From Paenibacillus albidus (GTDB lineage: Bacteria > Bacillota > Bacilli > Paenibacillales > Paenibacillaceae), in contig NZ_BMKR01000021.1 in NCBI RefSeq assembly GCF_014644435.1, positions 1 through 64,000 of the forward strand: a stretch of DNA of 64,000 bases, given 5' to 3'. This document shows, one piece after another, positions 5,923 through 47,118 of the stretch. The stretch's first letter is position 1, and each line of letters begins with the position of its first letter. The notes below the pieces were generated by a model. The model saw nothing but the letters and a program-made list of their open reading frames with translations, was not told the DNA's origin and ran no database searches. The translations under genes were made by a program, and so were the position numbers.

Positions 5923-5980
5923 AGGCTATTACACGGAAATTTGGATTGTTTGATTTGAGAGTACAACGGGAGGGAACAAA

Positions 5981-7906
5981 ATGGCACGTTATTTTAATGG
6001 TAAAGAGATTGAACTACTCGCACCGGCCGGCACATTTGAAATTTTCAGGGAAGTGGTTAAGTCCCGCTGTGATGCCGTTTATTTTGGCGGACCGGTTCTT
6101 AATATGCGAATGATGCGCAAGGGATATAACCTGTCCCACGAGGAAATTGTGGAGGCACTGGATATCGCTCACCGGCTTAATAAAAAAGTGTATATCACTG
6201 TCAACAACCTGTTCAGCGAGGAGGATGTGGAAGAAGCCAGGGAGTATCTGCGGTTTCTGGATCATGCCCGCCCGGATGCGCTGATTGTACAGGACATGGC
6301 TGTGCTGGAGCTGATTCGCGAAATGGAGCTCACCGTACCCATTCACGCCTCAGTGATGATGAATGTGCACAACCTGGAGATGATTCACGCCTTACGTGAT
6401 CTCGGGGTGAGCAGGGTGGTGACGTCGCGGGAGATGGACTTGCAGACTGCCAAGCTGTTAGCCCAGGGCAGCGGCATGGAGCTGGAATATTTCGTGCACG
6501 GCGATATGTGCTCTGTCCACGGGGCGAACTGCTACTTTAGCTCCCAGGTATTCGGCATGAGCAGCAACCGGGGCAAATGTATGAAGCCTTGCCGCTGGGA
6601 TTACCGGATCAAACGGGACGGATATGTCTTTCCGGCTGAATACCCGCTGGCGGTCAAAGATATGTTCATGTATGAGCATCTCCCTGAACTGATTGAATCG
6701 GGGATTACCTCCTTCAAGATCGAAGGGCGGATGCGCGACAAGGAATTTATGGTGAGCCTGGCCAACAGCTATGGTGAAGCCATTGACCGTTACATTGATG
6801 ATCCGCTTGGCTTCGACCGTAGAGTGGACTCGAAAGAGTTGTACAAAAACCGCAAACGGGATTTTTCGACCGCCTATGCTTTTGGCAGACCGGGCTTGTC
6901 CAATATTAACCGCCGGTATGAAGGCACGGGTAAATTCTATAGTACTGGCAAAGTATTCAGTACCCCTACCGCAGAACGGGAGTTGTCGGAGGAGCGTGTG
7001 GAACAGCTGCGGGAACGATTGGCGGAAGCGGGCAGAGCCCCGCAAGGAAAGCCGGAGCTCGCGGTGCGTGTGAACAATATGGAACAAGCCCGGGTGGTAC
7101 TGGAGCAGGGCGTGGAGAATCTGTACCTGTCAGGCGATGTGTATGAGCCGGATCGGCCTTTTACGAAGAAAGACATACAAGAACTGGGTGCGCTCAAAGG
7201 GAATACCAAGCTGTATCTGGGCATGCCGCGGATGATGACAGAGCTGCATTTTGATATGTATGATCAGCTGCTGGGCGGAGAACGGCTGCCGATTGACGGA
7301 TTGCTGGTGACCAATCTGGGCGCGATCCGCCGTTACAGAACTTCGGGTTATGGCATGATCGGCGACGCTAATCTGAATGTGTACAATCATCTGTCCGCCG
7401 GACTTTATGCGGGGCTGGGCCTTACTAAGCTTACAGTTTCACCGGAGATGACTCTGGAGCATTTTACCGCTTTTACTTCCCGTTGTGAGCTGCCGCTGGA
7501 GGTTGTGGTGCATGGGACACCGGCTTTGATGTATATGGAGCATGATTTGGTTGAGAACACCGAAGTGATGGAGCCGATCGGCCAGGAAGACAATAGGTAT
7601 GTCAGCAACGATGTGCTCGTGCTCAAGACAGATCAAGGGGAGAATCCCGTATACCGCGACCAGTATGGACGTTGCCATCTATTATTCGCCAAGGAGCTCT
7701 GTTACCTGCCTATGCTGAATGAGATGAGCGGACTGGGCATATCCTGTTTCCGGATTGAGGGTGCGACTTATCACGCAGACCAACTTCGCGGCATTATTGC
7801 ATCCTATCAAAATAAACTGAATGGCCCCGATTCCGGCAGCGGGTTGCTCGGCGGTTTGCAGCCGGTGTATGCAGGGTTTACGCTTGGTTCGCTACAGTTC
7901 AATTAA
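5981..7906 (+). CDS. Peptidase U32-family iron-sulfur protein with two U32-like halves
   Basis: A 641-residue U32-family protein; the ATG follows GGGAGGG. Despite the family name, characterised members (TrhP/YrrN-YrrO, RlhA, UbiU/UbiV) are 4Fe-4S proteins for oxygen-independent hydroxylation of tRNA, rRNA or quinone rings. The N-terminal barrel starts with ELLAPAG and carries Cys177, Cys184, Cys200 and Cys204 in the segment VHGDMC...GKCMKPCRW, a fitting cluster site. The second half (about 350-620) looks like a degenerate copy: VVVHGTPALMYMEH stands where the first cluster Cys would be. The length approaches RlhA rather than the roughly 420-residue TrhP form. Position in an EET operon hints at a quinone-related task, but RNA hydroxylation is equally possible. 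Confidence 0.8.
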   Translation: MARYFNGKEIELLAPAGTFEIFREVVKSRCDAVYFGGPVLNMRMMRKGYNLSHEEIVEALDIAHRLNKKVYITVNNLFSEEDVEEAREYLRFLDHARPDALIVQDMAVLELIREMELTVPIHASVMMNVHNLEMIHALRDLGVSRVVTSREMDLQTAKLLAQGSGMELEYFVHGDMCSVHGANCYFSSQVFGMSSNRGKCMKPCRWDYRIKRDGYVFPAEYPLAVKDMFMYEHLPELIESGITSFKIEGRMRDKEFMVSLANSYGEAIDRYIDDPLGFDRRVDSKELYKNRKRDFSTAYAFGRPGLSNINRRYEGTGKFYSTGKVFSTPTAERELSEERVEQLRERLAEAGRAPQGKPELAVRVNNMEQARVVLEQGVENLYLSGDVYEPDRPFTKKDIQELGALKGNTKLYLGMPRMMTELHFDMYDQLLGGERLPIDGLLVTNLGAIRRYRTSGYGMIGDANLNVYNHLSAGLYAGLGLTKLTVSPEMTLEHFTAFTSRCELPLEVVVHGTPALMYMEHDLVENTEVMEPIGQEDNRYVSNDVLVLKTDQGENPVYRDQYGRCHLLFAKELCYLPMLNEMSGLGISCFRIEGATYHADQLRGIIASYQNKLNGPDSGSGLLGGLQPVYAGFTLGSLQFN

Positions 7907-43526: not shown

Positions 43527-43582
43527 AACTGGCCTGTGCATCAGTAGGTTCCTTGAGGGACAGGCTGATACACAGGCCAGTT
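43527..43582 (-). terminator. Long hairpin terminator, minus strand (possibly both)
   Basis: AACTGGCCTGTG then ATCAG pairs with CTGAT and CACAGGCCAGTT. On the minus strand it is followed by TTTTAGTTT, ending the HD-GYP transcript. Confidence 0.85.
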
Positions 43583-43622: not shown

Positions 43623-44234
43623 CTATACGATCAGCTGCAGATCGGTTAGTCTCAGGAACTGCTCTACGACACCGGGGTCGAATTGAGTTCCGGAGCAGGC
43701 CGACAGCTCCTGCTTGGCTTGCTCCAGGGTCGTTTGCCTCCGGTAAGGCCGGGAGGACAACATCGCATCAAAGGCATCGATCACAGAGCAGACCCGGGCA
43801 AGCAGCGGAATGTTTTCGCCTTGCAGGCCATAGGGGTAACCCGTTCCATTCCACCGTTCATGGTGATAGCGGATGATGTCCGTAACAACGGCATCAATGC
43901 CGGGGAAATCCTTGGCAAGCTCTGCACCAATCACAGGATGCATCTTCAGAATATTCCACTGATCCTCCGATAAAGGCTCTTGTTGATCCAAGATATGTAC
44001 GGGTACAAATGATTTTCCGATATCGTGCAGAAAGCAACCTCTGACGAGATGGGTTCGCTCCTTCTCCGCAAGCTCCATGGAAGTGGCCATCACTTCTCCC
44101 AGCATGGCTACTCTGACTGAATGCCGATGAGTCTCCGCATGCTTGTTCCGCAAAAAATTCATCCACACACTAACATGTGCTTCTTCGGTAAGAGCCATCT
44201 GTACCTTTTTAACCAGTTCGGCTATCTCCCCCAA
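43623..44234 (-). CDS. HD-GYP domain protein, probable c-di-GMP phosphodiesterase
   Basis: A 203-residue protein. HDIGKS and the GYP-type block HHERWNGTGYPYGL with IPLLARVCSVIDAFDAM identify the HD-GYP class, which hydrolyses cyclic di-GMP. The TTG start at 44234 behind GGAGGG is preferred over an upstream TTG at 44273. No sensor domain is fused; the N-terminal 40 residues are helical. It is divergent from the recombinase gene and lies directly beside the left inverted repeat, so its expression may depend on the orientation of the neighbouring segment. Confidence 0.85.
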   Translation of the reverse strand: MGEIAELVKKVQMALTEEAHVSVWMNFLRNKHAETHRHSVRVAMLGEVMATSMELAEKERTHLVRGCFLHDIGKSFVPVHILDQQEPLSEDQWNILKMHPVIGAELAKDFPGIDAVVTDIIRYHHERWNGTGYPYGLQGENIPLLARVCSVIDAFDAMLSSRPYRRQTTLEQAKQELSACSGTQFDPGVVEQFLRLTDLQLIV

Positions 44235-44335
44235 CCTTACTCCCTCCCTATAGTTCTTATTGCGTCCTCCCAAAAGATCAAAAACAGCAAAACCTTCTAC
44301 AATATGTAAATAAATGGAACAAAAGTTGTGAAAAA

Positions 44336-44365
44336 ATGTCGTACAATATCACTTATGCGACATTT
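44336..44365. repeat. Left 30-bp inverted repeat, candidate recombination site
   Basis: Identical to the reverse complement of 45484-45513 over 30 bp. It begins ATGTCGTAC and ends ATGCGACATTT. With the flanking bases it is itself a dyad: AAATGTCG and CGACATTT around a 16-nt centre, the layout of a tyrosine recombinase core site. Confidence 0.9.
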
Positions 44366-44387
44366 ATATTGAAGAAGGAGCCATGAA

Positions 44388-45350
44388 ATGACAATGGAAC
44401 GAAGCGATTCTAATTGTTTGCAGCTAGCTTTGGTGGAACGTGGGGATACAATAAACAGTGATGAACAAATCGTCCAAATGTTTTTGGCAACATGCTGCCG
44501 GACAACTAATACACGGCGTAATTATGAAAGAGCCATTGCTGCTTTTCGTAAGTTTATATCTGCTACTGCCTTAAGGGATGTGTCATGGAGGGAAATTGAG
44601 GCTTACAAAATCTTTCTGACCCAAGGTGGTTACAGCTACCCGAAGCAATTGGCCCCTGCAAGTATCGCCGCTTTTATCGCACCTTTAAAATCCTTTTATA
44701 AGTGGGGCAGCGATCAGCATATTGGCTTTTTTGCAAATAATCCAACCGCAAGTGTACGTATTCCAAGCATCACCATCACCAGCAGAAGAAATTTTTTGAC
44801 CAAAAGAGAGGTGGGAAGCCTGCTGCGGGAGATGCAGTCACAGGGCTTGCGGAATTACCTGATCGGCCTGACATTGGTCTTGTTGGGCTTGCGTGTCTCC
44901 GAGCTAACAGCGATGAAATGGGGCGATTTTCATACAGATCCTCTGGAAACCTCGATCTGGCTAACGATTGCCAATGCCAAAGGCGGCAAGCGGAGGGAGA
45001 TCAAAGTACCGGCGGTTCTATGGGAGTTATACTCTGAGCTGTCCAGAACATTGTCCAAGGATGAAGATCCCGATCCGGGCCTGTTGATGTTTCCGTTATC
45101 CTCAAGACAGGTGGAACGGATTATTAAAAATGCGGGAGAGGCCAGCTCTATTGAGAAAAAATTAACCCCGCATTGGCTTAGACACACCAACGCGACACTT
45201 GCCTTATTACAGGGGGCTTCCCTCCAGCAGGTGCAGGAGACGCTTGGGCATTCGCATATCAATACGACTCAGCGCTACTTGCATACGGTTCAGCAAATCC
45301 AAAAGGCTGCTCCGGATTTTGTAGAGGATTGCTTGCGTGATTTCTTTTAA
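44388..45350 (+). CDS. Tyrosine recombinase between inverted repeats
   Basis: A 320-residue integrase/XerC-like recombinase. An N-terminal SAM-like DNA-binding domain (about 25-115) precedes the catalytic domain with Arg169 (GLRVSEL), a Lys near 198-201 (AKGGKRREI), His262 and Arg265 (HWLRH), His288 (LGHSHI) and nucleophile Tyr297 (RYLHT). All catalytic residues are present. The ATG at 44388 follows AAGGAG by 7 nt; a two-codon frame ATGAAATGA overlaps it. The gene lies entirely between the 30-bp inverted repeats, so the enzyme could invert the DNA that encodes it. No phage or conjugative genes are near, which argues against a standard prophage integrase. Confidence 0.9.
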   Translation: MTMERSDSNCLQLALVERGDTINSDEQIVQMFLATCCRTTNTRRNYERAIAAFRKFISATALRDVSWREIEAYKIFLTQGGYSYPKQLAPASIAAFIAPLKSFYKWGSDQHIGFFANNPTASVRIPSITITSRRNFLTKREVGSLLREMQSQGLRNYLIGLTLVLLGLRVSELTAMKWGDFHTDPLETSIWLTIANAKGGKRREIKVPAVLWELYSELSRTLSKDEDPDPGLLMFPLSSRQVERIIKNAGEASSIEKKLTPHWLRHTNATLALLQGASLQQVQETLGHSHINTTQRYLHTVQQIQKAAPDFVEDCLRDFF

Positions 45351-45397
45351 AGAAAGACACAAATAGGAAAGAAATTACTGTTATTTCTATTAATAAC

Positions 45398-45426
45398 TAT
45401 ACACTATTATACAAATGGCCTATAAT
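45398..45426 (+). promoter_or_regulatory. Outward-facing promoter inside the inverted-repeat segment
   Basis: TATACA at 45398-45403, a 17-nt spacer and a perfect TATAAT at 45421-45426. It points to the right inverted repeat. A hairpin TGTGCA with TGCACA (45438-45453) follows the likely start. In the opposite orientation it would read toward the HD-GYP gene. Confidence 0.6.
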
Positions 45427-45483
45427 ACTAGAAGGGCTGTGCAATTATGCACAAAGACGAAAAAGACCTATTTTTTAGTCCCG

Positions 45484-45513
45484 AAATGTCGCATAAGTGA
45501 TATTGTACGACAT
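45484..45513. repeat. Right 30-bp inverted repeat, candidate recombination site
   Basis: Perfect inverted copy of 44336-44365. Outside the 30 bp the flanks differ, so identity ends sharply. The enclosed segment is about 1.12 kb. Confidence 0.9.
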
Positions 45514-45525
45514 ATAAGCTAATTT

Positions 45526-45542
45526 TCGACATGAATTGTCGA
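45526..45542. other. Short palindrome beside the right repeat
   Basis: TCGACA and TGTCGA around TGAAT. It reuses the CGACAT/TGTCG half-site of the 30-bp repeats, 12 bp outside the right copy, and may be an accessory binding site. Confidence 0.5.
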
Positions 45543-46299: not shown

Positions 46300-46389
46300 A
46301 GCACAGGTGATCACACCTGAGCAGACTTGATTCAGTCAAATCCGGTTGCCGCTTCAGACTAAAGAAGCAGTAAAGTGAGGTTCATATTT

Positions 46390-47118
46390 ATGGAAATTTT
46401 AAGAAATTCGTGGTTTATTGTGAAGAGCGATTTTCGCGGCGACAAATTAAGGCTGCTGTGGACTTTTCTTTTTTCCATTCTCATGATGGGATATCTTGCA
46501 GGAATCACCGGGATGGTTGTGAATGAGGCTGTGGGCCAGCATGAACGGACAATTGTGGCCGATTATCTTTTGCTGACGATGATTCCAATGCTGGGGTTTA
46601 CATTCTCCGTCCGCACCATGAAGTATTGGAGCAGCAACTCCTATACGAAAATGCTGGCCTACCTGAGAGCTCTGCCGATCCCCGCTCCGGTCATTTTGTG
46701 CAAAAGAAAGATACAGGCGCTTATTTCCTTTGGGCTAAACGGTACATTGTTCTTCGGGCTAATGTACGCCATTAGTGGGAGTTTACGGAATGAGCTTACG
46801 GGTTCCTCCTATTTTGCTTTTGCCCTGACCTGGGTTGGCTACGGGCTGATGTTGACGGGAGTATACATTTTCATCGAATACCTGTTCAGCGGCATAGCTT
46901 ATCTCTGGCTTACGATGCTGATTATGGTGGTGTTCTTCGGTATTACAATGGTTATTCACTTGGCGGGAGCCAATGTGTTGCTCTACAGCATCTCCTCTTC
47001 CAAAGAGTGGGGGCTGCTGTCCCCGCTGATGTGGGGCACGCTGCTGCTGGGGACGTTATCCGTTCAGCTTTTTTCCAAATGGACCATTTACAGATTAAAG
47101 AGCCGTGATCTTGTATGA
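46390..47118 (+). CDS. ABC-2-type permease, first gene of a GntR-controlled cluster
   Basis: A 242-residue membrane protein with six helices and no other motif, like the permease partners of YtrB-type ATPases. The ATG at 46390 follows GTGAGG by 9 nt. The gene is immediately followed by the regulator and two ATPase genes. The transported compound is unknown; in Bacillus the ytr operon reacts to cell-wall antibiotics. Confidence 0.75.
   Translation: MEILRNSWFIVKSDFRGDKLRLLWTFLFSILMMGYLAGITGMVVNEAVGQHERTIVADYLLLTMIPMLGFTFSVRTMKYWSSNSYTKMLAYLRALPIPAPVILCKRKIQALISFGLNGTLFFGLMYAISGSLRNELTGSSYFAFALTWVGYGLMLTGVYIFIEYLFSGIAYLWLTMLIMVVFFGITMVIHLAGANVLLYSISSSKEWGLLSPLMWGTLLLGTLSVQLFSKWTIYRLKSRDLV

Follow-up and report, generated by a model that had tools for sequence, protein, structure and literature searches.

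A candidate self-inverting tyrosine-recombinase promoter switch beside a c-di-GMP signalling gene in Paenibacillus

The window analysed here, a 64,000-nucleotide stretch of Paenibacillus albidus DNA (contig NZ_BMKR01000021.1, positions 1 to 64,000), contains two perfect 30-bp inverted repeats (100% complementary, 1118 nt apart) that flank a single intact open reading frame. Apart from one short hairpin near 59.1 kb, no other 18-mer in the window has a perfect inverted partner 20-2000 bp away. The features of the locus are as follows.

43623-44273, minus strand: HD-GYP c-di-GMP phosphodiesterase gene, the presumed target, with its 5' end facing the unit (the open reading frame starts at 44273, although by eye a TTG at 44234 after GGGAGGGAG looks the likelier start)
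44336-44365, plus strand: left recombination site (30-bp repeat; core 44336-44363, arms of 11 bp, centre TATCAC at 44347-44352)
44388-45350, plus strand: tyrosine recombinase of 320 residues, inside the invertible segment
45398-45426, plus strand: outward promoter candidate, with TATACA (45398-45403), a 17 bp spacer and TATAAT (45421-45426), pointing out through the right site and away from the HD-GYP gene in this orientation
45484-45513, minus strand: right recombination site, the exact inverse of the left (centre 45497-45502)
45526-45542, no strand assigned: TCGACA/TGTCGA dyad just outside the right site
46375-47118, plus strand: first gene on the other, non-target flank, 862 bp from the unit, with no Pfam hit and beside ABC-exporter genes (named by eye)

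The recombinase shows a Phage_integrase domain (PF00589, E 7e-27) and an N-terminal SAM-like domain, and only tyrosine-recombinase models matched at E<=0.001. Residues Arg169, Lys198, His262, Arg265, His288 and Tyr297, which are presumably the catalytic residues, are invariant in 95 of 95 aligned homologues. The protein nevertheless scores below the curated cutoffs of the XerA (142 versus 220 bits), XerC (120 versus 335 bits) and XerD (112 versus 330 bits) equivalog models and below those of the NCBIfam tyrosine-type DNA invertase models (46 versus 222 and 42 versus 221 bits). The divergent gene to its left is an HD-GYP gene (Pfam HD_5, with additional HDIG and NosR-family hits), and a 27-bp imperfect, terminator-like hairpin (43527-43582) lies between it and the DUF420 gene. 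The unit is present in a single copy in the 7.67-Mb genome, and its site, allowing up to three mismatches, occurs only twice there. These results confirm the observation in the preliminary description, which had recognized an intact recombinase gene between perfect inverted repeats with TGTCG/CGACA dyad arms and had proposed that the recombinase flips its own gene. That description did not, however, note the outward promoter candidate or the constancy of the neighbouring gene among relatives; the unit carries more than a recombinase gene alone.

Close homologues of the recombinase occur in 18 of 100 genomes of the genus (E<=1e-40), 84 of 394 genomes of the family (E<=1e-70) and 81 of 392 genomes drawn from the order (E<=1e-60); these sets overlap and include the window's own genome. 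Named relatives are Paenibacillus and Cohnella (22 loci). A set of 96 loci (numbered with the prefix L, their genomes with the prefix G) was assembled from 93 loci of the genus and family searches, two named loci (L037 and L043) and the window. A repeat pair encloses the gene in 95 of these 96 loci, the exception being L115, which argues that the arrangement in the window is more than chance. In L061 (G074) the recombinase gene is broken into pieces while its 43-bp repeats stay perfectly matched.

Alignment of the two copies of each pair shows a core of 24-28 bp, consisting of arms like TGTCGTACAA, a 6-bp centre and the mirrored arm; in the window the layout is an 11-bp arm, the asymmetric 6-bp centre TATCAC and an 11-bp arm. 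In 95 pairs (L104 being read by eye) 78 arm differences and three centre differences were counted, with all three centre differences and seven of the arm differences belonging to L097, one of whose sites is broken near a contig end. Thus, 94 of 95 pairs have identical centres, of about 32 kinds, none of them palindromic, although 71 arm differences exist outside L097. Shuffling the right-hand centres among the 75 loci matched by a stricter pattern gives 6.6 matches on average (maximum 15), compared with the 75 of 75 observed. Because the pairs were found by similarity, identity itself is partly built in and related loci are not independent, but the contrast between drifting arms and unchanged centres is not built in. 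This is the rule for strand exchange, and the inverse placement of an asymmetric centre predicts inversion. In some genomes the repeat extends beyond the 28-bp core into the flanks (36 bp in L077), as if flank sequence had been copied between the two sides, and in L128 (G112) a 73-bp inverted repeat (5932-6004 and 7067-7139 of the gene-oriented locus) includes the start of the recombinase gene, which is therefore duplicated downstream in inverse orientation.

Comparison of the outer flanks shows that most pairs of relatives with comparable flanks share one orientation (207 pairs with both flanks same-side), but several have the left and right flanks exchanged relative to the recombinase. In the cleanest case, L075 (G147) and L076 (G168), the flanks are 89% and 92% identical when swapped (1329/1499 and 1375/1498) and only 63-65% identical when compared same-side (819/1290 and 803/1230), the inner identity is 1311/1462, and similarity breaks at the site edges on both sides. 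L089 shares the orientation of L075. The pairs L087/L093 and L076/L089 are exchanged on both sides, L086/L091 and L148/L150 are clear on one side only and L148/L149 is not clear on either. On a tree of 95 recombinases, from which L061 was omitted because its gene is broken, the orientation relative to the adjacent gene (72 loci with it on the 5' side and 23 with it on the 3' side) needs at least 12 changes, at least eight of which are forced by well supported branches.

Both junction types are clearly present in one draft assembly (G141) and probably in two more (G276 and G278). In G141 the contig carrying the unit ends 3 bp past the 21-bp core of the right site, while a second contig carries the same core followed by 47 bp identical to the 5' side of the recombinase, joined to a different flank, and ends there; the identical stretch covers 71 bp. 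The two flanks share exactly those 3 bp, and the first contig thus stops at their last common base. The flank on the second contig resembles the non-target flank of the relative G138 clearly only over about its last 55 bp, and beyond that the similarity is no better than in the control. In G276 the contig ends exactly at the core, where the two flanks share 0 bp, and a second place on the same scaffold joins the core and 14 bp of the 5' side (35 bp in all) to another flank before unknown bases, although a genuine third site is not excluded there. In G278 the same roughly 64 bp of the HD-GYP-side flank is attached to both ends of the unit within a 92-bp repeat; a true longer repeat could also explain this, and a search of the whole genome for a separate second junction matched only the one contig. 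For L097 (G134) no site matched the pattern used. Contig ends within 70 bp outside a site were found in three of 59 loci in 52 drafts, against about 0.13 expected from rounded contig counts.

The stretch between the recombinase stop codon and the right site (median 112 bp) carries TATAAT on the outward strand in 72 of 95 loci and on the other strand in six, whereas dinucleotide shuffles give a mean of 13.6 and a maximum of 22. The promoter rests on consensus matches: 23 of 95 loci lack an exact TATAAT, and a simple -35/-10 score prefers the outward strand in 83 of 95 loci but not in 12. In the window the TATAAT-containing candidate lies 62 bp from the right core. Of 17 loci inspected, five of six from the window's clade have TATACA at 17 bp (L059 does not), three others have ATGCAA and four a TTG-box at 17 bp before the TATAAT, and in the rest the best-scoring pair is a different one. 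A promoter for the recombinase itself could not be placed, since the best promoter scores in the flanks did not exceed those of shuffles. Loci L056, L097, L098, L104 and L126 were left out of the flank statistics (n = 90), as was L148 in the flank promoter comparison (n = 89), because of contig ends, a broken site or unknown bases.

In 96 of 96 loci at least one gene of the tested families (HD-GYP, CheW, CheA, MCP, GGDEF-EAL and SecA) lies within 3 kb with its 5' end towards the unit, and the nearest hit always reads away from the unit. This nearest hit is HD-GYP in 73 loci, CheW in 17, SecA in four and GGDEF-EAL in two, with distances measured to the tblastn match. Pfam searches of representatives identified HD_5, CheW, CheA domains, MCPsignal, GGDEF and EAL, whereas SecA was named by eye; in one clade (L114, L116, L118 and L120) this SecA-like gene lies 59-68 bp from the unit in place of a signalling gene. 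Since the query families were chosen from neighbours already seen, their presence is partly circular, but their direction is not. In 20 further loci, taken from 16 of 31 order-level genomes outside the family and not used to choose the queries, 18 have the repeat pair (L181 and L182 lack it), 19 have such a gene reading away and HD-GYP is nearest in 15, although one of the 20 (L166) is the same contig as L037. Two genomes of the genus have the HD-GYP gene but no close recombinase hit. In the first, G001, the locus is syntenic with the window and only one site was found, but the promoter candidate and that site remain, turned towards the HD-GYP gene. This frozen relic shows that the other orientation has existed in the genus and suggests that the promoter was worth keeping there. 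In the second, G064, which has the window's exact 30-bp repeat, the bases between the two repeats are unknown from repeat to repeat; this is suggestive of a fork but is not proof, and is given little weight.

Taken together, these observations support with good confidence the interpretation of the unit as a self-encoded invertible promoter switch, although promoter activity, the effect on the target gene and inversion in the window strain itself are inferred. In this model the recombinase binds the two 28-bp sites around its own gene, pairs them and exchanges strands in the 6-bp centre, which inverts the roughly 1.15-kb segment because the centres are identical, asymmetric and inversely placed. 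When the 3' end of the recombinase gene lies beside the signalling gene the outward promoter would read across the site into it (ON), and when the 5' end does, as in the window, the promoter would read away. The window would thus be in a presumed OFF state for the HD-GYP gene, and the inverted form would be ON, with lower c-di-GMP.

It is possible, although less likely, that the unit is a locked relic in the window's clade, fixed in the orientation facing away from the HD-GYP or CheW gene while the switch works elsewhere in the family. All 18 loci of this clade (17 intact and the broken L061) have one orientation, G001 has lost its recombinase and the window's own assembly shows no second junction, suggesting that switching there is rare, conditional, strongly biased or lost. 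However, the residues presumed to be catalytic are intact in the window and its two sites are identical, and where the centre changed within the clade (TATCTC in L058, TAACAC in L059 and L060) both copies changed together, which suggests continued recombination or conversion. Somewhat less likely still is that the sites recombine but that the flipped promoter is not what matters, with inversion mainly switching transcription of the recombinase itself, or reading an antisense RNA, and the HD-GYP gene being driven by its own promoter. The recombinase start lies only 22 bp inside the left site in the window, so its promoter must overlap the site or lie in whichever flank abuts it. The conservation of an outward TATAAT, the orientation of the nearest signalling genes and the retention of promoter candidate and site in G001 argue against this alternative. 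Very unlikely is the reading of the repeats as operators for autoregulation, with the orientation differences being old accidents of homologous recombination between short repeats; the left repeat does overlap the region where a recombinase promoter would lie, but the arms drift while the centres do not, as is the rule for strand exchange rather than for an operator, and both junctions occur in one draft assembly and probably in others. A small transposable or integrative element, for which one gene between terminal inverted repeats would be a plausible layout, is the least supported alternative, given the single copy, the same kinds of neighbour throughout, the inversion in place between conserved flanks and the absence of matches in phage records, of matches covering 80% of the protein in plasmid records and of matches in IMG/VR with the patterns used.

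The preliminary description had considered a unit whose only gene is the recombinase, placed beside a c-di-GMP gene, to be an arrangement unknown from described systems, but the architecture is not unprecedented, as Salmonella Hin lies inside its own invertible segment (PMC5903667), which is bounded by inverse sites and carries a promoter driving the adjacent fljBA operon in one orientation (PMC9368917, PMC5903667). Hin, which is helped by Fis and HU, is a serine recombinase acting on hix sites, whereas the enzyme described here is a tyrosine recombinase with an 11+6+11 site and the neighbouring gene is a c-di-GMP or chemosensory gene rather than flagellin. The Clostridioides difficile pdcB switch (Cdi2) is an invertible promoter upstream of a c-di-GMP phosphodiesterase gene whose orientation sets expression (PMC9286219), but it is only 174 bp in length, too short to hold a recombinase gene, has imperfect 19-bp repeats, lies 840 bp upstream of the gene and controls an enzyme with an EAL domain. 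Tyrosine invertases of the FimB/FimE type flip a promoter segment, but the window protein falls below the invertase cutoffs given above. The best solved relatives by sequence are XerA, a XerC-like protein and XerD, from which the present system differs in having paired inverse sites around its own gene rather than one chromosomal dif. No description of this Paenibacillus system was found in the literature searched (including PMC3694910, PMC10333796 and PMC3908376), which left out most subscription papers.

If functional, the unit would give Paenibacillus-type bacteria a heritable coin-flip for c-di-GMP breakdown and chemosensing, in a device that inverts the gene of the enzyme that inverts it. 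In the nine genomes of the 96-locus set with two or three units the units have different centres (L097 of G134 having one broken site), as do those of G500, G504 and G518 in the order-level set, so that the units could also serve as compact, mutually independent inversion tools. A more tentative reading is that a previously undescribed family of self-encoded tyrosine-recombinase switches has spread through Paenibacillus and its relatives and has duplicated into several switches per genome, each with its own centre and signalling target, so that one cell flips two or three c-di-GMP or chemosensory modules independently. Such switches may be a genetic basis of the motile/sessile morphotype switching known in Paenibacillus. 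Two interchanging morphotypes are described in P. vortex, for which the mechanism of temporary phenotypic adaptation is called unclear (PMC3908376), and the mechanism of colony phase variation in P. polymyxa is said to remain to be elucidated (PMC3694910), although neither species is among the 22 named loci. The TCGACA/TGTCGA dyad just outside the right site of the window, a similar one being present in close relatives (L045 and L061), appears to resemble paired Spo0A boxes and could tie the switch to sporulation state.
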